A stretch of DNA of 54,908 bases from positions 1 through 54,908 of IMG/VR virus record IMGVR_UViG_3300015245_000530. The stretch is one strand, 5' to 3'. Shown piece by piece: positions 4,427 through 50,433 of the stretch. The notes under the pieces were generated by a model. It had not been told where the DNA came from and ran no database searches. It saw only the letters and a list, made by a program, of their open reading frames with translations. Each line of letters opens with the position of its first letter. The stretch's first letter is position 1. The position numbers were made by a program, and so were the translations under genes. This stretch comes from a virus.

Positions 4427-4540
4427 GATCGCGGTCTCCCCTTATAAAAAGCTGGCTTACCAACTTGGATTTGGACGCTACGTGCCTTTCGGACTCGGCG
4501 TCAACAGCCGGGCCGCCGAAGGCGAGTCCCGGCGACAAGT

Positions 4541-38884: not shown

Positions 38885-39319
38885 CCCCGCCGGCGCCGCC
38901 GGCTTGCCCTCCCCGGCCGGTTTCTTGGCGAAGGCGAAGCTCTGCGTGATGATGACGGGCAGCGCCATCAGCAGCTCGTCCACCCCGATCGGCAGGTCGT
39001 CGAACTGGGCCCGCGACATCTCGGGATGGGCGCGCGTCACGGCGGCGTAGGTGACCTCGGCCAGGATGTCCATGGTCTCCGCGTCGATCGGGAAGTTGAG
39101 GAACCAGGACTGGTCGATCTCCCCGCCGGCGGTGATCGCAACCTTGGCGGCCCCGGCCATACCCTGGACCGTGGCGATGAGCGGCATGATCTTCTTGAGG
39201 TTGCCGACGACCACGCGGTTCTGCTTGAACGCCAGGCGCGGAATGCGGAAGTCGGCGCCGCCGAGTTTGATGGCCGGCGAGTTGCTGATCTCGCCCTCGG
39301 TGAGGTACTGCGCCGTCAT
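38852..39319 (-). CDS. Tail assembly chaperone (gpG-like)
   Basis: 155 residues. N-terminus AQYLTEGEISNSPAIKLGGA, FRIPRLAFKQNRVVVGNLKK, then ILAEVTYAAVTRAHPEMSRA and QFDDLPIGVDELLMALPVII, followed by a Lys/Ala/Pro-rich tail ending at TAG. The layout fits the first tail chaperone placed between major tail and tape measure genes. The alternative frame continues beyond this stop (see the extension), so two products are likely. ATG overlaps the major tail stop. Confidence 0.75.
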   Translation of the reverse strand: MTAQYLTEGEISNSPAIKLGGADFRIPRLAFKQNRVVVGNLKKIMPLIATVQGMAGAAKVAITAGGEIDQSWFLNFPIDAETMDILAEVTYAAVTRAHPEMSRAQFDDLPIGVDELLMALPVIITQSFAFAKKPAGEGKPAAPAGEAPVPTGTLS

Positions 39320-40071
39320 GACTTCTCCGCGAAGGACCAGGTGGCGACGTTGCCGGCCGCGTCGGCGAAGACCGAGAAGTCGAGCTCCTCCATCACGAAG
39401 TCGTCGAGCTTGGTGGGGAACCCGAGCTTGGCCGCCGTGCAGTTCGGGATCTTCATCGTGAGCGGCAGGTTCTGGAAGGTGGTGAAGAGGTTCGCCTGGA
39501 AGGTCGGCGTGGCGCCCAGCAGTTGGTTGACCGCGACGATCTTCTGTCCCGTCGCCGAGACCGTGTACGTGTAGCTGATGAGCACCGAGATGCCGCTGGC
39601 GTTGTCGGCCGAGGCGAACGTGTATACGCCCACGGCGCTGACGCTGTACTGGCCGGCGGTAGGGCCCGAGGCGACCTTGGTGAACGGGAGCGCGGTCGCG
39701 GCGTTGATGACCCCTAGGTCGTCCACGAACTGCGCGCCGTTGACCACCGTGATCTGGAACGGCGTGGTGGGGATCGCGGTCGGCCCCTCGGCGAACGAGG
39801 TGGCGACCTGCCCCGCCACCGGGGTGATGCCGAAGAAGAGGTCGCCCATCACCAGGCCGGACACCCGCGCCAACTTCGCCTTGACCGCGAACTTTCCCTT
39901 GCCGCGCGCGATCGCGACGGGGAACTGGTACTGGCCGTAGAGCTCCTTGATGTCGAACGACATCTCCACGCCGACCTCCTGGACGAGCCCGAAGTTGACC
40001 GGTGTCTTGAGGACGCCCGGCAGCGTGTCGGTGCGGAATCCCTGCAGCACTCCTGAGCCGAACGAGAACAT
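39316..40071 (-). CDS. Major tail tube protein
   Basis: 251 residues. Starts MFSFGSGVLQGFRTDTLPG, then KTPVNFGLVQEVGVEMSFD and IKELYGQYQFPVAIARGKGK, conserved in alphaproteobacterial phage tube proteins, and ends LPLTMKIPNCTAAKLGFPTK, LDDFVMEELDFSVFADAAGN. Residues about 130-170 hold a beta module (ASGPTAGQYSVSAVGVYTF, ISVLISYTY) also found in the head-tail connector. Located between tail-terminator and chaperone genes, as expected. Forms the tube through which DNA passes. Confidence 0.85.
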   Translation of the reverse strand: MFSFGSGVLQGFRTDTLPGVLKTPVNFGLVQEVGVEMSFDIKELYGQYQFPVAIARGKGKFAVKAKLARVSGLVMGDLFFGITPVAGQVATSFAEGPTAIPTTPFQITVVNGAQFVDDLGVINAATALPFTKVASGPTAGQYSVSAVGVYTFASADNASGISVLISYTYTVSATGQKIVAVNQLLGATPTFQANLFTTFQNLPLTMKIPNCTAAKLGFPTKLDDFVMEELDFSVFADAAGNVATWSFAEKS

Positions 40072-41030: not shown

Positions 41031-41359
41031 GTGCCGACCTTCTCCGTGGTGCCCACCCACACGAACTCGCCCAGCGCGCCGACGGGGAAATAGTCGCGGC
41101 AGGCGCAGCAGAACGTCCGGCCGTAGAACTCCGGCTTGGCCGCGTAGGTCTCCGCGATCGCGCGCGGCATCGAGGTGAGCCCGCCGCATTTCTGGTGCAT
41201 GTACGCGGTGCGGACCGGTCGGCAAAAGCCCTTCGCCCGGTCCTCCGCCGACATGACCCAGTGGTCCTTGTGCTGGCCGTCAGGGTGCCGCGACATGTCG
41301 GGCACGCTCGCCTCCTCGGGGAGGAACGCCGGCCGGCCGGTGGTCGTGTCCTTGCTCAA
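41027..41359 (-). CDS. Phage protein with paired cysteines (structural-operon zinc-like)
   Basis: 110 residues. Cysteines in KGFCRPVRTAYMHQKCGG and FCCACRDYFPVGALGEFVW suggest one metal site. Similar short proteins with a CRDYFPVGxxGEFxW end are found between connector and gp10-like genes of many phages; function unknown. Overlaps both neighbours by four bases. Confidence 0.65.
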   Translation of the reverse strand: MSKDTTTGRPAFLPEEASVPDMSRHPDGQHKDHWVMSAEDRAKGFCRPVRTAYMHQKCGGLTSMPRAIAETYAAKPEFYGRTFCCACRDYFPVGALGEFVWVGTTEKVGT

Positions 41360-42219
41360 TGCGTCACCACGCGGCGGTATTGCCCGAGCATGAGCTTCAC
41401 GCCGTCCTGCATGTCTTTGAGGCTGAACGATATGGTCTCCTGGCCGCCCAGCGACTTCGACGCCTGGCCGATGCGGCCGCGGTAGGTGTAGCGCTCCGCG
41501 ACGAACTCGATGACGGCCTGCGCGACGTCCGCCGGGATGTACCCATACGAGACCAGCACCGTCTTGCCGCTGTCCGCGGCGTTGAACGTGTAGGTGGGGG
41601 TGCCCGTCACCGGCTGGGCCGTGACCGCGTACTGGCCGGCGGCCGGCGCTCCGACCACCTTGACGAGGGCGACCCCGTTGCTGGCGAACGTCGCGCCGGC
41701 GTCAGCGCCCCAGGCCCCGTAGGGCTGCGCGAAGACCGGTTGGAACGGTCCGGCGCCCGCAGGCACGAGCACCGCCTCGCCCGTCACCTGGTAGCCGGCC
41801 GTGTAGGACACCTGGATGTTCTGCATGCCGCGCGGGACGCAGAAGCCGAACAGGTCTAGCCACTGGCTCTGCCCCGGCGGGCTGCCGTCGAAGGGGCTGA
41901 GCAGCCACCCCGAGGTCAACGCGGCGTTCGTCGGCGACGGCGGCACGCCGGCCGGCACGACCACCGTTCCCAGCATGAGCGACGAGACCGATATCACCGG
42001 GAAGTGCCTGAGCAGTATCCGGCGCTGGTTGGCGCCGTAGCCGTCCATGCGGTCGGAGAACGCTGCGGGCAGGAAGTTGTCGAGGTTGCAGTAGCCGACC
42101 ACGACCCTGCTCGCCATCGTGATCATGCGGCTGAGCAGCGCGTCGGCGTCGCTGGTGCCCGACGCGATGCCGAGCCACGACTTGACGTCGGCGAGGTACG
42201 TGAGGTCGTTCGCCGCCAT
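41356..42219 (-). CDS. Head-tail connector protein with inserted beta module
   Basis: 287 residues. The gp6-like connector parts are at both ends: TYLADVKSWLGIASGTSDAD, ALLSRMITMASRVVVGYCNL and, near the C-terminus, YIPADVAQAVIEFVAERYTY, RGRIGQASKSLGGQETISF. In a standard connector the SYTAGY strand would run directly into the PADxxQAxIE helix. Here about 80 residues interrupt it, including VVGAPAAGQYAVTAQ and TYTFNAADSGKTVLVSY, a beta module related to one in the major tail protein. Function: joins portal to neck. Ends overlapping the following gene. Confidence 0.8.
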   Translation of the reverse strand: MAANDLTYLADVKSWLGIASGTSDADALLSRMITMASRVVVGYCNLDNFLPAAFSDRMDGYGANQRRILLRHFPVISVSSLMLGTVVVPAGVPPSPTNAALTSGWLLSPFDGSPPGQSQWLDLFGFCVPRGMQNIQVSYTAGYQVTGEAVLVPAGAGPFQPVFAQPYGAWGADAGATFASNGVALVKVVGAPAAGQYAVTAQPVTGTPTYTFNAADSGKTVLVSYGYIPADVAQAVIEFVAERYTYRGRIGQASKSLGGQETISFSLKDMQDGVKLMLGQYRRVVTH

Positions 42220-42696: not shown

Positions 42697-42896
42697 TGCA
42701 GCTTGCCTTTCGCTTCTAGCACCACCTGGTGGCAGGGGCCGCCGTGGTCGCAATACGCGCAGCGCGAGTTTGCGCCGGGCTCGAACGTCTCGCAGGGGCC
42801 GAGGTTCCCCGGATACGTGCCGCAGGAACACCGGCCGATCTCGAACCTCTCGGTCAAGGTCGTCTCGCACCGCCCCTGCTGGTCACCCAACATCAT
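42693..42896 (-). CDS. Small cysteine-rich protein
   Basis: 67 residues from the ATG at 42896. Eight cysteines lie in RCETTLTERFEIGRCSCGTY, GPCETFEP, SRCAYCDHGGPCH, enough for two zinc sites. Its ATG overlaps the TGA that ends the inserted GIY-YIG gene, and that TGA seems to be the original end of the capsid gene (see the endonuclease entry), so the ancestral coupling was capsid to this gene. Function unknown. Confidence 0.6.
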   Translation of the reverse strand: MMLGDQQGRCETTLTERFEIGRCSCGTYPGNLGPCETFEPGANSRCAYCDHGGPCHQVVLEAKGKLQ

Positions 42897-43441
42897 CAAC
42901 CGTTGCCGATGTTGGTGAAACGTTTAGCCACTTTCCCATATTCCGACGCTTGCTGCCGACGCACAGGATCGGCCATCTGAACGGTCGCCGCTCTCCGTAA
43001 CTTCTCGATGTGCACCGATGATTTTATTTGACCCTTGCGGCTCGCAGAAATGCGCGCTCGATGTTCGGCCGATTTCGGCCGGCCAGAATGCAAAGCTCGC
43101 ATTTTAGTGCTCACGGACATCGGTTGCGGAACGCCCCGCCGTGTTCCCGCGACTGGGCACACGTTGTAGCCAAAATCTGAATCGCTGGTCTGAAGCATAT
43201 TCATCCAGATTTGCTCGCGTCGCAAAAGCCTATCTTCATTGCATCTTTCGATGATGCGGAAAGAAAACGCCGCCTCTCCGAACTTATCGAAGGCTCGCTG
43301 CAGATGAGGCGAGTGATGTTCGCCACGCCTGAGCATCCGTCTGTGGATGTAGAGCCTCCTGACCGCGTCTCGCGAGGAACCGACATAGGCTTTCCCGTCG
43401 GAAACATTGAGAATCAGATAGATGCCGGGGCGGCAGGCCAT
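42896..43441 (-). CDS. GIY-YIG homing endonuclease with NUMOD3 repeats
   Basis: 181 residues. The GIY-YIG core is intact: PGIYLILNVSDGKAYVGSS (GIY...YVG), RRLYIHRRMLRRGEHHSPHL with the catalytic arginine region, FGEAAFSFRIIE, and LLRREQIWMNMLQTSDS with the catalytic glutamate. After it come NUMOD3-like DNA-binding repeats (GRPKSAEHRARISASRKGQI). It ends in KRFTNIGNG, the same residues that end the capsid protein upstream. The gene is AT-richer than its neighbours. It sits in the 3' end of the major capsid gene; the details suggest a mobile element that rebuilt the capsid terminus. It would cut empty alleles of the capsid gene. Confidence 0.9.
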   Translation of the reverse strand: MACRPGIYLILNVSDGKAYVGSSRDAVRRLYIHRRMLRRGEHHSPHLQRAFDKFGEAAFSFRIIERCNEDRLLRREQIWMNMLQTSDSDFGYNVCPVAGTRRGVPQPMSVSTKMRALHSGRPKSAEHRARISASRKGQIKSSVHIEKLRRAATVQMADPVRRQQASEYGKVAKRFTNIGNG

Positions 43442-43474
43442 TATTTGAACTTAGCATGCCGTTCCCGAAATCGC

Positions 43475-45094
43475 CTAACCATTCCCAATATTGGTGATGA
43501 CCCCCATGCTCGGGGGGAAATAATGTTGCAGGACCTCGTCGGCGTAGACGCCGCTCTCGTAGCGCCTGGCGCGCAGGGGCCACTCGATCTGGTAGTAGTC
43601 CTGCCGCGTGCGGACCTGCATCACGTTGCCCACGTTGCTGATCGGGTAGGGCAGCGCGTTCGACGTGAACAGCATCGTCCCGGCCGGCAGGTTGGGGTGG
43701 ATGCGGATGTCGAGGACCTTGGCCCCGGACATCGAGTACTTGTTCAGGTAGGTGCGGACCATCACGCCACCGCCGAGCGCGCTCTGCTGGCTCTCGAAGA
43801 CGAACCGCTGGGCCGCGTTCGCGGACCCCGCCAGTATCTTCTTCGACAGGTTGGTGGCCTCCTGGGACGACACCCAGACGGTGTCCGGCGATAGGCGGTA
43901 GATGTCCCACCGGTCCTTGAGCAGCGCGTCGATCTCGACGATGCCGCCCGCGCCGTCGCCCGTGAGCGGGCTGCCGGTGCCGGCGGTGCCGGTCGCCAGC
44001 GAGGCGATGTACGCGTTCGAGCCGGTCTTGAACGCCTGGTAGAGGATGCCGTCGAACACCAGCGCGTTGGTGGAGCTGTCGGACGCCGGCAGCGAGGCGG
44101 CGGTCTGCGTGCCGGTCGCCAGCGCGGTGATGTTGATGGAGTTGATGGTGGTGATCGCGCCCAGCACCTCGTTGCCGGCGCCGACCCCCCAGAACCACGC
44201 GTAGCCCAGCGCCCCCGTCTTGAGGGTGGTGGTCGCGGTGATGCGGTGGGTGCTCACCGCGTCGTTGGCCGTGGTGACGGTGGCGTTGGCAGACTTCTGC
44301 GCCGCGCCGCCGCCGAACACGTCGGTGGACCCGTCGGCGTTCGCGCGCGTGATCTGCGCCTGGATGCCACCGGCGACCGATCCGTTGATGACCGCGTCAA
44401 GCGAGAGCGGCACGACGATCACGCTGAAGCCCGTGTTGAACGCGAGCGTGCCGCCGGTGCCGACGTCGGCCAGGACGGGCGTGCCGCCGGTGCCGATCGG
44501 CTGTGAGGTGTTGCCGCCGAGGATGAGGATCTCCTCGCCGATCATCGTCGCCTCGAGCCCGACCTTCGCGCCGATGGCGCGGATGTCGTCGAAGCCCATG
44601 CCCGCGTACTGGGCCTCGAAATCGACCGAGGTCTCCAGGCCGATGCCCTTGTACGAGGCGATGTAGTCCTGGGTCGATACCTGCTGGACGCCGCCGCGGT
44701 TGCCCGCGCTCACGCCGATGCGCATGCCGGTGGAGTTGATGGCGGTGACGGCGCGCCACGCCGCCTGGATACCGCCCTTGCCGGACACGCGCGGGATCAT
44801 GTTCCGCAGCGGGGTGAGGACGGGGTAGAGGAACTTCGCGCCGAGCTCCAGGTCGTAGTAGGTGAGGCCGGACACCGCGGAGCCTGACTGGCCGAACGTG
44901 CTGGCCTTCGTCAGGAAGCTGGAGTCGGGCAGGAATGGGTTCTCGATCGACTTCTTGATCTCGTCGAGGAACGACCCCATCGCGGAGAGGTTCGCCTGGA
45001 ACTCCTCCATGGTCTTGGCGCCGAGCGACTTGGCGAGCTCGTTCTTGAGGTGCGGGCTGAAAGTGATGGCCTTAGTCATGGCGTTCATGGCCAC
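43475..45094 (-). CDS. Major capsid protein (HK97 fold)
   Basis: 539 residues, large for the family. The N-terminal helical region (HLKNELAKSLGAKTMEEFQA; NLSAMGSFLDEIKKSIENPF) may be a delta domain. Blocks of HK97-type capsids follow: YDLELGAKFLYPVLTPLRNM, STQDYIASYKGIGLETSVDF, IGEEILILGGNTSQP, TYLNKYSMSGAKVLDIRIHP and IEWPLRARRYESGVYADEVL. Residues about 200-330 are a large Gly/Thr-rich strand insert that could be a surface decoration. The last six residues (TNIGNG) are encoded by codons unlike the ancestral copy downstream. Ends with TAG. Confidence 0.85.
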   Translation of the reverse strand: MAMNAMTKAITFSPHLKNELAKSLGAKTMEEFQANLSAMGSFLDEIKKSIENPFLPDSSFLTKASTFGQSGSAVSGLTYYDLELGAKFLYPVLTPLRNMIPRVSGKGGIQAAWRAVTAINSTGMRIGVSAGNRGGVQQVSTQDYIASYKGIGLETSVDFEAQYAGMGFDDIRAIGAKVGLEATMIGEEILILGGNTSQPIGTGGTPVLADVGTGGTLAFNTGFSVIVVPLSLDAVINGSVAGGIQAQITRANADGSTDVFGGGAAQKSANATVTTANDAVSTHRITATTTLKTGALGYAWFWGVGAGNEVLGAITTINSINITALATGTQTAASLPASDSSTNALVFDGILYQAFKTGSNAYIASLATGTAGTGSPLTGDGAGGIVEIDALLKDRWDIYRLSPDTVWVSSQEATNLSKKILAGSANAAQRFVFESQQSALGGGVMVRTYLNKYSMSGAKVLDIRIHPNLPAGTMLFTSNALPYPISNVGNVMQVRTRQDYYQIEWPLRARRYESGVYADEVLQHYFPPSMGVITNIGNG

Positions 45095-45237: not shown

Positions 45238-47070
45238 TCAGTACCGCGGCGTGCCCGACCCGGGCCGCGTCTCCTGCGCCATGCGGCGCTGGTTCGTCAG
45301 GAGGTAGTGCATGTCCGCGTTCACGCGGGCCTGCGCCCTCCTCTCGGGCTCGGGCACGTTCGACCCGGCGTCCCCGCCGCGGCCGTCCATGCCCTTCTCG
45401 ACCACGTTAACGCGGGTCGTGCCCTCGGGCAATGGGATCGACTCCATTTTCTTGATGCGCTCGGTCCAGTCGGTGATGACCGCCGCCTGATCCCGGATCG
45501 TCTTCTGGAAGGCCTCGAGCTGGGCGTTCATGCTGCCGCGGATCTTCTCGGCTTGGCTGGCCTCGCAGTCCGCCCCCGCGTCGACCAGCAGATCGTGCGC
45601 GTCGTTGAGGCGCCGCTGGTCGGTCTTGGAGTGGCGCGCGCCGATCTTGGCGAGCGGCATGCGCCCGACCACCTTGGCGAGGTCGCCCACGATCATGCCG
45701 CGCTCCATCGCGCCGTTCGCCTCCGCGGCCTCCTCCTCGCGGATCGACTGGAGGCACTCGTCGAGCACCTCGGCGCATATGTCGCCCATCTCGACGAGCA
45801 GCGCGCCGAACCGGTCGCAGAGCTCCTTGGAAACCACGACGCCGTACCCATAGCCAGGCCCCTCAAGCGATTCCTCGGCTGAGTCCAGCGACGCCAGCAG
45901 CTGGATGAGGTTGGCGACGCCGTAGAGCGACGCCGCCTTCTTGACGTCGACCTCGGCGATCTTCGTGACGTCGATCACCTCGGCGGCCTTGACGCGCCAG
46001 TTCTCCGGCAGCTCGGCCGTCGCGCCCAGCGACTTGGCCCGGCGGATGATGTGGCGCTTGGTGGCCGCCTGGTTCCTCGCGCGCGCGAGCCCCTCGACCA
46101 CGTCCTTCAGGGACGCCTTGTCGGGGATCGGGTACTCGCCGCCCTTCATGGCCACGCCGTCGCCGGCGTACTTCTTGCGCTCCGCCGGCGAGTAGGTGCG
46201 TCTCTCAAGCTCCTCGCGCATCAACTTCATGGCGTCGGTCGCCGGCTGCGCGGCCTTGGCGGCCACCGAGGCCGCCCGCGCGGCGAGCAGCGCGGCGCGG
46301 AGGTCCGACTTCTTGCGGAAGCTCTTGCCTGGCAATTCGGAGTGCACCCAGTCCTGCGCCCAGTTCTCCTCGCCGAGCGGCTCGTCATGGACGTGCGCGA
46401 TCGAGTGGTCGCCCGCGGCCTTGAGCGCGCTGGCGCGCTCCAGCTGCTTGGTGATGATGCCGCACGCCTCGGTGATGTGCTCGGCCCACTTTGATTCGTC
46501 TCCCGCGGCCTTGGCCAGGCGCTGCGCCTCGGCGGCCACGGTGTCGTTGGTGAACGGGATCTCCTTGGCCGCGAACTTCTTCAACTCCACGGTGCCGTCG
46601 GCCTTGACGATCTCGAACGTGGCGGTGGGGATGCAGGGCAGGTCGACGAGCGAGCCCTCGTAGGGGTCGGCGACGTACCGGTATAGCTTCTCGTTCTTGT
46701 CGTCGCGGGTCCGGCTGACGTACTTGCCGCCGATCGAGAACCCCGTGTAGACGCCCTCCAGGACCTTCTCCCACTCGTTCTTGTCGACCACCTTGGCGGC
46801 GACGTTGATCCGCAGGTGGTCGTCGTCAAAGCCCATGTCGGTGAACTTGCCGGCGGCGACGGCCCCGTGCATGGCCCGCAGGTTGCCGACGCTCTTGCCG
46901 TCGGTCGCCTTGGCGCAGTCGTTGGACCACTTCTCGAAGTAGGGCTTCGAGCCACCGTAGTCGAATATCTCCCCTGACCTGTCGGGCACCTCCTCGGCAA
47001 GCACGCCGTAGACGATCTGCTTTGCCGCGTCGACCTTGGTGATGGGGACGAAGACTGAGAGGTTGCCCAT
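45238..47070 (-). CDS. Prohead protease-like protein with long C-terminal region
   Basis: 610 residues from the ATG at 47070 (GGAG six bases upstream; an in-frame start at 47157 is weaker). Residues 1-165 look like a capsid maturation protease: VFVPITKVDAAKQIVYGVLA, VGNLRAMHGAVAAGKF with the probable catalytic His, LEGVYTGFSIGGKYVSRTRD with the probable Ser, and EGSLVDLPCIPTATFEIV. After it come about 450 helical, charged residues that could be a scaffold (AKAAGDESKWAEHITEACGI; ARAASVAAKAAQPATDAMKL; EEAAEANGAMERGMIVGDLA). A protease fused to a scaffold is known in other phages. Precedes the capsid gene. Confidence 0.8.
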   Translation of the reverse strand: MGNLSVFVPITKVDAAKQIVYGVLAEEVPDRSGEIFDYGGSKPYFEKWSNDCAKATDGKSVGNLRAMHGAVAAGKFTDMGFDDDHLRINVAAKVVDKNEWEKVLEGVYTGFSIGGKYVSRTRDDKNEKLYRYVADPYEGSLVDLPCIPTATFEIVKADGTVELKKFAAKEIPFTNDTVAAEAQRLAKAAGDESKWAEHITEACGIITKQLERASALKAAGDHSIAHVHDEPLGEENWAQDWVHSELPGKSFRKKSDLRAALLAARAASVAAKAAQPATDAMKLMREELERRTYSPAERKKYAGDGVAMKGGEYPIPDKASLKDVVEGLARARNQAATKRHIIRRAKSLGATAELPENWRVKAAEVIDVTKIAEVDVKKAASLYGVANLIQLLASLDSAEESLEGPGYGYGVVVSKELCDRFGALLVEMGDICAEVLDECLQSIREEEAAEANGAMERGMIVGDLAKVVGRMPLAKIGARHSKTDQRRLNDAHDLLVDAGADCEASQAEKIRGSMNAQLEAFQKTIRDQAAVITDWTERIKKMESIPLPEGTTRVNVVEKGMDGRGGDAGSNVPEPERRAQARVNADMHYLLTNQRRMAQETRPGSGTPRY

Positions 47071-47092
47071 GGGGTTCTCCGGGAGGTCACCA

Positions 47093-47121
47093 CTTTTAGA
47101 CGCGAATTGGGGGAAGCGCAA
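47093..47121 (-). promoter_or_regulatory. Weak promoter candidate before the protease gene
   Basis: The 189 bases 47071-47259 hold no convincing gene. On the minus strand TTGCGC (47116-47121), a 17-base spacer and TAAAAG (47093-47098) could be -35 and -10 boxes upstream of the protease start. The TTGCGC overlaps the loop and right arm of a GGAAGC/GCTTCC hairpin (about 47112-47128). The match is modest and could be chance. Confidence 0.22.
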
Positions 47122-47259
47122 TGCTTCCGGCGCCCCGCAAAACGTCGTCTGGACCACCGTCCTTGGCGGCCCGCCTTCGCCGCTTGCAGCTGCGCCGGCC
47201 CCAGCCAGAGTACCACTGGAGGCCGGAGGTCGCAGAGGTTGGGGCCGAGAACGTGCTAC

Positions 47260-47750: not shown

Positions 47751-48028
47751 CACCCGTGGCCCGATCGATCGCTCTCCGGCGCCCGCTCTGGCTCGCTCCA
47801 GTGCGAAGGCCTCGCTCCAGTCGTTTCCTCGATCAGGTCGTCCATGCACGACTGCATCAGTCGCCTGAAGCGGTCCTTGAGTTCCAGGTTGTTTACCACG
47901 AAAGTTATCCGGATGGAGCCGAGGAGAAGGGCGTCGTCCATCGTCCCGGACTTGGCCATGTAGGCGTTCCAGAATTCCCCCTCGTGCCGCAGCGCCAGGC
48001 GGACCGGCATCAGAACTTTCTCGCTCAT
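47750..48028 (-). CDS. Small hypothetical protein downstream of the portal
   Basis: 92 residues from the ATG at 48028, overlapping the portal stop. Seen: EKVLMPVRLALRHEGEFWNA, YMAKSGTMDDALLLGSIRIT, FVVNNLELKDRFRRLMQSCM. It resembles the short conserved phage protein with an HEGxxWNAYxAxxxTMxxAxLLGSI pattern located near head genes. Role not known. Confidence 0.6.
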   Translation of the reverse strand: MSEKVLMPVRLALRHEGEFWNAYMAKSGTMDDALLLGSIRITFVVNNLELKDRFRRLMQSCMDDLIEETTGARPSHWSEPERAPESDRSGHG

Positions 48029-50433
48029 TCCTCGTCTCCCGCCTCGTCTGCCGGCTCGTCCTCGACCACTGGCGCCACGGCGCACTCGCAGTTCGGGTGC
48101 GCGGTCGGCTCAGAGTCGCCGGACGGGAAGTCGTCGTCAACATCGATGGCCCCGGCGTCGGCGTTCTCCTGGCATATCTCGCAGGGGTTGGGCCCGAGTA
48201 TCCACTCCTTCTTCACGTTCACGCCGGCCTCGTCGCGGGCGATCCTGTAACCCTCGACGGCGGCCGCGGAGTTGGCGTCGCGTATCTCGGTGAAGGCGAT
48301 GAGCTCCGCCCGGTCGTCCGAGAACGCGCCTATGTCCGCGATCTCGTCGGCGATGGCCTCGTTCCCGATGTTCTCGTCGAGGCCGTCGGCGATGGCCTCG
48401 CGGATGGCGTCTCGGGTGGTGTCCTCGATCTGGTAGCGCGCGTCCGGGTTGTCCACCAGCTCGCCGTCGACGTACCGCTTGCCCACAAGCTCGGCCGCGT
48501 AATCGCGCGCTATGTCGGCCGCGCGCTCGTTCACGACGTCCATGAGGTCGGATTCGGCGTCCACCCCGAGCGACAGGACGGCCTGCTCGGCGTAATCCTG
48601 CGCCGCGGCGGCCAGCGCGTCGGCCACATCGTCGATCGCGGCCTCTATGTCGGACAGGTCGGCGTCGGCGGCGATCGCCGCGGCGATCTCCTCGTTGGTC
48701 CTGGAGTCGTCGGCCTTGGCTACTTTGGCCAGGCCCCGCTTCACCGCGGCCTTGGTTTTCTTGGCCGCCTTGCCGAACGCGCGCCTGAGGAGCTTGGCCG
48801 CCTTGGCCCGGGCCCGCAGGATCTTCGGCCGGTCAAAAGGGATGGGTTCGAGCCGCCTCCCGGCGGCCGACTTCTTCTTGACCGGTTTGCCCTTCGACTC
48901 GTCCGGATTCGCTGCGCCGCCGTTCGGCTTGGCGTTCCCGGCCGGCGGCTTGCCGCCGAAGGCGGGCTCGGGCGGGCCAAGCAGGTCGAGCGCCTTCTTC
49001 TTCTCCTCAAGGGTGTTGGCGCCGATCGGCAGGTAGCCGGTGGCCGTCTTCACCATCAGCTGGTCGGCCGCGGGGTCTTCGGACGGCTCCTCGCCGAGCT
49101 CCTCGCGCGCCTCGTTCAGCGTGATGAGCCCGTCCTCGACGCGCTTGGCAAGGATGTTGGTCTGCTTCTCCTGGTCGACCTCGATCTCCTCGTCGAAGGC
49201 GAACTCCAGGTCGCGCGAGCCGAACTCTACCTCTATGACGTCGGTGAACCACTCGCGGATGTAGTCCTTGTAGGGCTCTATGCCCTCCTCCTTGGCCGTG
49301 TCCTGCGCCGTGCCGGCGGTGGCCCGGTTCATCATCTGGACGAACGGCTGCGGCGACATGGAGTGGGCGAAGCACACGACGCGCGCGAGCCACTCGTCGG
49401 TCTTGCCGGTGAGCTCCGGCTCCTTGGTGGGGATGAAGGTCTTGGCGACGCCGCCGGGCACGAACTTCGCGCGGCGCCTGACGGCGAGGTTGCCGGACAG
49501 CATCGCGTCCCAGTAGGTTTGGAACGCCTGTATCTGGTCGGGCGTCCAGCTGTCCGGCGCGCCGATCAGCGACTCGGGGACGTTTCCCTCCGTGTAGTAG
49601 CTCAGCATGAACTGCTGGCGCCGCAGCGCGATGTTCACGGTGGTGATGATCTGCTCGACGGGCGAGTAGCCGTACACCTTGTGGGCGCGCTTGTTGTAGG
49701 GCCGGTAGATCAGGTCCTCGACGCTGTAGTTGACCGCCGGGTAGCCCTTCAACGCCTGCTGGTATGCGGGAGGGACCACGCGGCCGCCGTCGGCGGCGAC
49801 GTAGGGCACGGGGGTGCGGCCCCAATCGTCGACGAGGACCTTGACGGTGGCGCCGTCGATCTGCTTGAGCGCGATGAGCTGGCCGCCGCGGTTGCGTTGG
49901 CAATAGATGGCCGGCGCGTCGATCACGCACAGGTCTTCCAGGTACGACCGCAGCCAAGCGCGGTACCTGGTGATCCCGTCGGGCCGGCTAAAGAACGGGG
50001 TGAGCGCGTCGATGCGCGCCTGGTCGGCGTCCTTGATCTTCGACTTCTTGTCGGTGCCCTTTACGCGGATGCTCCAGTTCAGCTTGCAGAGCTGGTCCTT
50101 GCGCGTCTCGATGACGAGGCGGAGCAGGTCGTAGACCTCCGCCAGCGAGCGCAGCATCTGGAAACCGACCTGCTCGTAGGCGCGCGGCTGGTTGACGAGG
50201 TTGTAGCCGTGGGGGTAGTCGAACTGCCGCCCCGCGACCTCGGGCGGCGCGATCGGCTCCATGGGGTTGAGGGGGCCGAACCAATCCTCCGGGCCGTTCC
50301 GAATGATGCCCTGCGATCGATCGTAGTTCGACGAGATCGTCACCTGGTAGGGCGACAACGCCGTCATCGAGCGGCCTTCGCCCCGAGGGGTCTGCACTTT
50401 CTCAATGTCATCAGTCATATGCGGGTGCAACAT
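48025..50433 (-). CDS. Portal protein fused to a MuF/SPP1-gp7-like domain
   Basis: 802 residues. Residues about 70-480 form a portal: LVNQPRAYEQVGFQMLRSLA, SYLEDLCVIDAPAIYCQRNR, GGQLIALKQIDGATVKVLVD, GYSPVEQIITTVNIALRRQQ, MLSYYTEGNVPESLIGAPDS, TPDQIQAFQTYWDAMLSGNL. A Lys/Ala/Pro-rich linker follows (about 480-570), then a helical region and the MuF fold at about 700-795: ELIAFTEIRDANSAAAVEGY, RIARDEAGVNVKKEWILGPN, PCEICQENADAGAID and HPNCECAV with the paired cysteines. Portal and MuF are usually separate proteins. Start ATG at 50433; a second ATG lies at 50418. Neither has a strong Shine-Dalgarno. Confidence 0.88.
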   Translation of the reverse strand: MLHPHMTDDIEKVQTPRGEGRSMTALSPYQVTISSNYDRSQGIIRNGPEDWFGPLNPMEPIAPPEVAGRQFDYPHGYNLVNQPRAYEQVGFQMLRSLAEVYDLLRLVIETRKDQLCKLNWSIRVKGTDKKSKIKDADQARIDALTPFFSRPDGITRYRAWLRSYLEDLCVIDAPAIYCQRNRGGQLIALKQIDGATVKVLVDDWGRTPVPYVAADGGRVVPPAYQQALKGYPAVNYSVEDLIYRPYNKRAHKVYGYSPVEQIITTVNIALRRQQFMLSYYTEGNVPESLIGAPDSWTPDQIQAFQTYWDAMLSGNLAVRRRAKFVPGGVAKTFIPTKEPELTGKTDEWLARVVCFAHSMSPQPFVQMMNRATAGTAQDTAKEEGIEPYKDYIREWFTDVIEVEFGSRDLEFAFDEEIEVDQEKQTNILAKRVEDGLITLNEAREELGEEPSEDPAADQLMVKTATGYLPIGANTLEEKKKALDLLGPPEPAFGGKPPAGNAKPNGGAANPDESKGKPVKKKSAAGRRLEPIPFDRPKILRARAKAAKLLRRAFGKAAKKTKAAVKRGLAKVAKADDSRTNEEIAAAIAADADLSDIEAAIDDVADALAAAAQDYAEQAVLSLGVDAESDLMDVVNERAADIARDYAAELVGKRYVDGELVDNPDARYQIEDTTRDAIREAIADGLDENIGNEAIADEIADIGAFSDDRAELIAFTEIRDANSAAAVEGYRIARDEAGVNVKKEWILGPNPCEICQENADAGAIDVDDDFPSGDSEPTAHPNCECAVAPVVEDEPADEAGDEE

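Follow-up and report, generated by a model that had tools for sequence, protein, structure and literature searches.

The window analysed here, i.e. the whole 54,908-nt stretch of IMG/VR virus record IMGVR_UViG_3300015245_000530, is a single record of metagenomic type. On its minus strand it carries a head-tail module in which the genes follow one another in the order portal-protease-capsid-connector, with tail genes further on (Table 1). Between the capsid and connector genes lie a GIY-YIG homing endonuclease ORF, a small Cys-rich ORF and one more gene. The capsid assignment was based on this gene order and on annotated head proteins of phages MMB025 and Sonali, to which tblastn gave weak matches; the PHROG of the protein (phrog_13692) has no named function, profile search retrieved no convincing PDB relative, and the predicted structure has a mean pLDDT of 45. 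Residues ~145-237 of the connector match phrog_8234, the family of the protein encoded at 39316-40071 (minus strand), which suggests that the two proteins have a domain in common.

Table 1. Features of the head-tail region of the window; the recoded and displaced capsid ends are named after the interpretation favoured in the text
Feature	Position	Strand	Evidence or remark
Portal gene	48025-50433	-	Head-tail module
Protease-like gene	45238-47157	-	Head-tail module
Capsid ORF	43475-45094	-	phrog_13692, E=5e-132; synteny portal-protease-capsid-connector
Native part of capsid gene, codons 1-522	43529-45094	-	GC3 0.97; codon usage; synteny
Recoded replacement capsid end, codons 523-539 + TAG	43475-43528	-	z -8.25, GC3 0.59; rare-codon sharing closest to L074
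Spacer from capsid stop to endonuclease start, 33 nt	43442-43474	-	Sequence
GIY-YIG homing endonuclease ORF, 181 aa	42896-43441	-	PF01541, 2.4e-7; I-TevI catalytic-domain profile, 1.1e-24; alignment to L074 enzyme
GIY-YIG catalytic domain	43187-43429	-	Conserved residues Y8, Y19, R29, E76, N93
Displaced native capsid end, 23 nt, codon 533 position 2 to stop, TCACCAACATCGGCAACGGTTGA	42896-42918	-	Base-by-base family match
Cys-rich small ORF, 68 aa	42693-42896	-	ATG overlaps endonuclease TGA
Connector gene	41356-42219	-	Head-tail module; tail genes further on

The capsid ORF and the endonuclease ORF close on the same six residues. The capsid C-terminus ITNIGNG is written ACC AAT ATT GGG AAT GGT TAG and the endonuclease C-terminus FTNIGNG is written, in phage-like codons, ACC AAC ATC GGC AAC GGT TGA, with four synonymous differences in six codons and a different stop; the TGA of the endonuclease overlaps the ATG of the next ORF (TGATG). 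All these features, from which the original prediction had started, are present on the minus strand. Three capsid scans and three named records provided 109 distinct capsid genes, 108 of them relatives with complete ends, and in the great majority of these TNI[G/A][N/A]G or a close variant forms the C-terminus. Since this end is conserved across the capsid family, and mostly in GC-rich codons, the endonuclease tail is a capsid end. Most relatives that lack the endonuclease and likewise end in TNIGNG have the GC-rich codons predicted for them (typically ACC AAC or AAT ATC GGC AAC GGC TGA); a strikingly AT-rich TNIGNG, named beforehand as counter-evidence, was found in one of them (L067), whose whole capsid gene is AT-richer. 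The relatedness of the two ends also held in the wider alignment: compared with the capsid ends of 83 relatives, the endonuclease tail tracks the family nucleotide by nucleotide starting at position 2 of codon 533 (100%, then 78%, and so on), and there is essentially no agreement 5' of that position. Chance agreement of six C-terminal residues would be expected about once in 10^7 cases, a figure that would place the match beyond coincidence.

The two copies in the window are identical to each other at 16 of 23 nt, and each is identical at 20 of 23 nt to the capsid end of some other phage, which for the copy carried by the endonuclease is that of L076. In the L076 contig a strong, terminator-like hairpin stands right after the capsid stop (4479-4540, fold z -3.6); none like it follows the capsid gene of the window.

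The recoding of the capsid end proved more extensive than originally described: the four synonymous changes in the last six codons are there, but the atypical stretch covers about 17 codons and begins some 30 nt before the repeated 23-nt stretch. Capsid codons 523-539 have the lowest codon-usage z of the 523 windows in the gene, below the capsid-tail values of all 108 relatives (lowest -5.09, median -0.25), and their GC3 falls far below that of codons 1-522; the endonuclease as a whole has a GC3 of 0.61 and its fused tail one of 0.86. The codons CAA, CAT, TAT, AAT and ATT, all used in this tail, are absent from capsid codons 1-500, and the encoded residues are conserved. Judged by composition, the capsid copy of the end is, over its last 17 codons, the foreign one, i.e. 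an in-frame C-terminal segment that preserves the protein. Donor codon usage accounts for this recoding as well as resistance to the enzyme would. The recoded end also contains, at 43480-43520 (minus strand), a CCCCC-GAGCAT-GGGGG hairpin and a CCAATATTGG palindrome; RNA structure was rejected as the cause of the recoding, folding being no better than that of shuffles (z about 0). Among the 108 relatives the most atypical capsid-end codon usage is that of L231 (z -5.09), downstream of which no endonuclease was found; its end could reflect a past visit or plain drift.

The endonuclease matches PF01541 above cut-off, and alignment showed its residues Y8, Y19, R29, E76 and N93 to be invariant, i.e. 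the conserved Tyr, Arg, Glu and Asn of the GIY-YIG catalytic fold are all in place. In the predicted structure the catalytic domain reaches a pLDDT of about 88-96 and the fused tail is of very low confidence. No promoter was found on the endonuclease strand, and sequence inspection of the 33-nt spacer, which is probably part of the inserted cassette proposed below, revealed no strong ribosome-binding site. A single-sequence scan of viral contigs yielded no close relatives of the enzyme; a two-sequence profile yielded only one, in contig L074, the next match being at 38% identity. Named phages have remote relatives only, all under 60%, and the GTDB genomes gave one remote fragment. An Rfam search of the window returned no match, including to group I introns; a group I intron carrying the endonuclease was rejected on this ground, and because the capsid gene is complete with its stop before the enzyme and its end is duplicated. 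No displaced ends of upstream genes were seen at L083, L085, L087 or L089, four further endonuclease loci.

On the far side of the endonuclease, the Cys-rich ORF has CSC and CAYC motifs and overlaps the next gene by ATGA. The viral collection contained no relative of it, and nothing recognisable as its counterpart was seen in the capsid relatives; in those inspected, a different gene comes next after the capsid gene, so that the ancestral coupling through TGATG, proposed along with the rest, was not confirmed. As far as can be told, the Cys-rich ORF lies outside the mobile element.

An endonuclease at the capsid end was found in the window and in one of the 108 distinct relatives, L074, where the homologous gene (in the region 1577-2258) starts 43 nt after the stop of a capsid gene whose last residues are unlike those of its sister phages. 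The two enzymes are 56% identical over residues 1-171 of that of the window. The L074 enzyme, of 211 aa, has about 40 further residues beyond the position at which the window enzyme joins the capsid remnant; it contains three NUMOD3 stretches, the window enzyme a single weak one. The window enzyme therefore looks shortened at its C-terminus. No displaced native capsid end is visible in L074. In a capsid-body tree made with a quick method, L074 (entered as L082, the same contig) belongs to a 99%-supported clade with L093-L096, which have no endonuclease, and stands apart from the window, whose neighbour in that tree is L142, also without the enzyme. The gene thus has the patchy, one-site distribution of a free-standing homing endonuclease, with empty alleles and two occupied ones in separate capsid lineages.

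The capsid ends of the two occupied alleles resemble each other in unusual ways. The four sisters of L074 end ...QCYFPPAF..., and L074 ends ...QHYFPPSM..., as does the window. Codon CCC527 of the window recurs in L074 alone among 106 relatives and AGC529 in three of 92, two of these being L203 and L229, which have AGC529 alone and no endonuclease; the pair is common to the window and L074 and to no other relative. Of 2.9 million viral contigs, that of L074 was the sole one matched by a degenerate pattern requiring CCC527 and AGY529. For rare codons shared with the window tail, L074 ranks first of 108 (12.7 vs 7.9 for the next), and in raw tail identity it ties as closest, at 42 of 51, with L122, which lacks the endonuclease. 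Upstream, its similarity to the window is unremarkable (it ranks 42nd over codons 443-522 and 53rd over codons 43-442), and measured against its own gene its tail shows no recoding (z -0.61). As evidence that enzyme and capsid end may travel together, the comparison with L074 is moderate, not overwhelming.

Taken together, we consider it quite probable that a mobile cassette, made of the endonuclease and a recoded capsid end, took the place of the native capsid-gene end, whose last seven codons it displaced. This agrees with the original prediction that an element landed in the last capsid codons, brought a replacement end along and left the original GC-rich end fused to the endonuclease frame. 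The free-standing GIY-YIG gene would travel with a replacement capsid 3' end. An ancestor of this phage would have received both in the final codons of its native capsid gene, the simplest route being repair of a double-strand break with an endonuclease-bearing phage as donor. Coconversion would have run leftward over at least codons 523-532 and hardly or not at all to the right; for I-TevI, coconversion that is asymmetric in favour of the first exon has been described (PMC2988022). The synonymous foreign end with its own stop would have restored the full capsid reading frame, and the right side of the endonuclease gene would have been joined to native codon 533, such that the last seven native codons and their stop would now end the endonuclease ORF. 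The recoded end could also protect the capsid gene; the restored capsid frame is what is visible in the sequence. Cleavage of the native end, protection of the recoded one and homing as the route of entry are steps that we infer. We hold it an even call that this is a mitochondrial-style element in phages, i.e. that the conserved 3' end of the major capsid gene is the cleavage site of the homing endonuclease, which brings along a recoded end resistant to cleavage and so leaves the capsid unbroken whenever it inserts, its own ORF ending on displaced native codons and stop.

It is unlikely that the junction arose instead by mosaic recombination, homologous or illegitimate, in which the capsid end and endonuclease of another phage were exchanged in and the endonuclease, possibly dead, was not the driver. 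Donor codon usage would explain the recoding under such an exchange, AT-richer capsid ends do occur in L067 and L068, neither of which has the enzyme, and homing endonuclease genes are known at recombination boundaries (PMC10448857). The shortened C-terminus of the window enzyme, from which the NUMOD3-like repeats kept by L074 are gone, points the same way, but the catalytic residues are intact, and the sole relative with the enzyme at this place belongs to another capsid lineage and has an atypical end with rare codons in common with the window. Far less probable is a target-site duplication, by which ~23 bp of the capsid end would have been duplicated at insertion, the capsid copy then drifting synonymously. 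The copies are short and in equal reading phase, as such an origin would have it; however, GIY-YIG enzymes leave 2-nt overhangs (PMC2988022), codons 523-532 are foreign, and because each copy is nearer to the ends of other phages than to the other copy and recoding begins ~30 nt before the duplicated segment, simple duplication followed by drift does not fit. Least credible of all is coincidence or an assembly artefact, i.e. unrelated matching ends or a chimeric contig, since, even if a single metagenomic record makes a chimeric junction possible on sequence alone, the fused copy tracks the family-conserved end base by base and an independent contig (L074) has a homologous enzyme at the same place.

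Entry of a cassette that couples the endonuclease to a replacement capsid end, the reading that we prefer, would show how a selfish gene with neither intron nor intein can enter an essential structural gene harmlessly, by supplying the very end that its insertion destroys. It would keep the remnant of the native end and the recoded replacement in one molecule, and so give a testable target site, and a recoded gene end followed by an endonuclease and a displaced native end would be a signature that could be searched for across phage genomes. In the open-access literature we recognised no phage precedent for this arrangement.

The closest parallels would be the fungal mitochondrial mobile ORFs, which the present case would connect with phage homing endonucleases. 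In atp6 of Allomyces macrogynus and in atp6, atp9, cox2 and nad3 of Glomus sp., a diverged C-terminus was inserted together with an endonuclease ORF and the native C-terminus was displaced; in Glomus atp9 the enzyme is of the GIY-YIG type and the inserted end is 51 nt long (PMC3630166). As in these elements, the endonuclease ORF of the window lies just 3' of a conserved gene, which has a diverged, largely protein-preserving in-frame C-terminus, and the native C-terminus lies beyond the endonuclease; unlike in these elements, the host is a phage capsid gene and not a respiratory gene, and the displaced end is not separate but fused in frame to the endonuclease, to which it gives the stop codon. 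We take this likeness to be architectural and do not claim common descent. The free-standing GIY-YIG enzymes of T4 (Seg) likewise lie between conserved phage genes, are patchily distributed and cause donor sequence to replace that of the recipient. The free-standing enzymes of T4 are described as cutting at a distance of hundreds to thousands of bp from the gene that encodes them (PMC2988022), so that a target at the insertion point, as proposed here, would instead resemble that of intron-encoded enzymes. Among the latter, I-TevI is approached by the window enzyme in its catalytic-domain profile match and in the weak NUMOD3-like motif after the catalytic domain, but it differs in its setting: no intron was detected here by Rfam, and the capsid stop precedes the enzyme.
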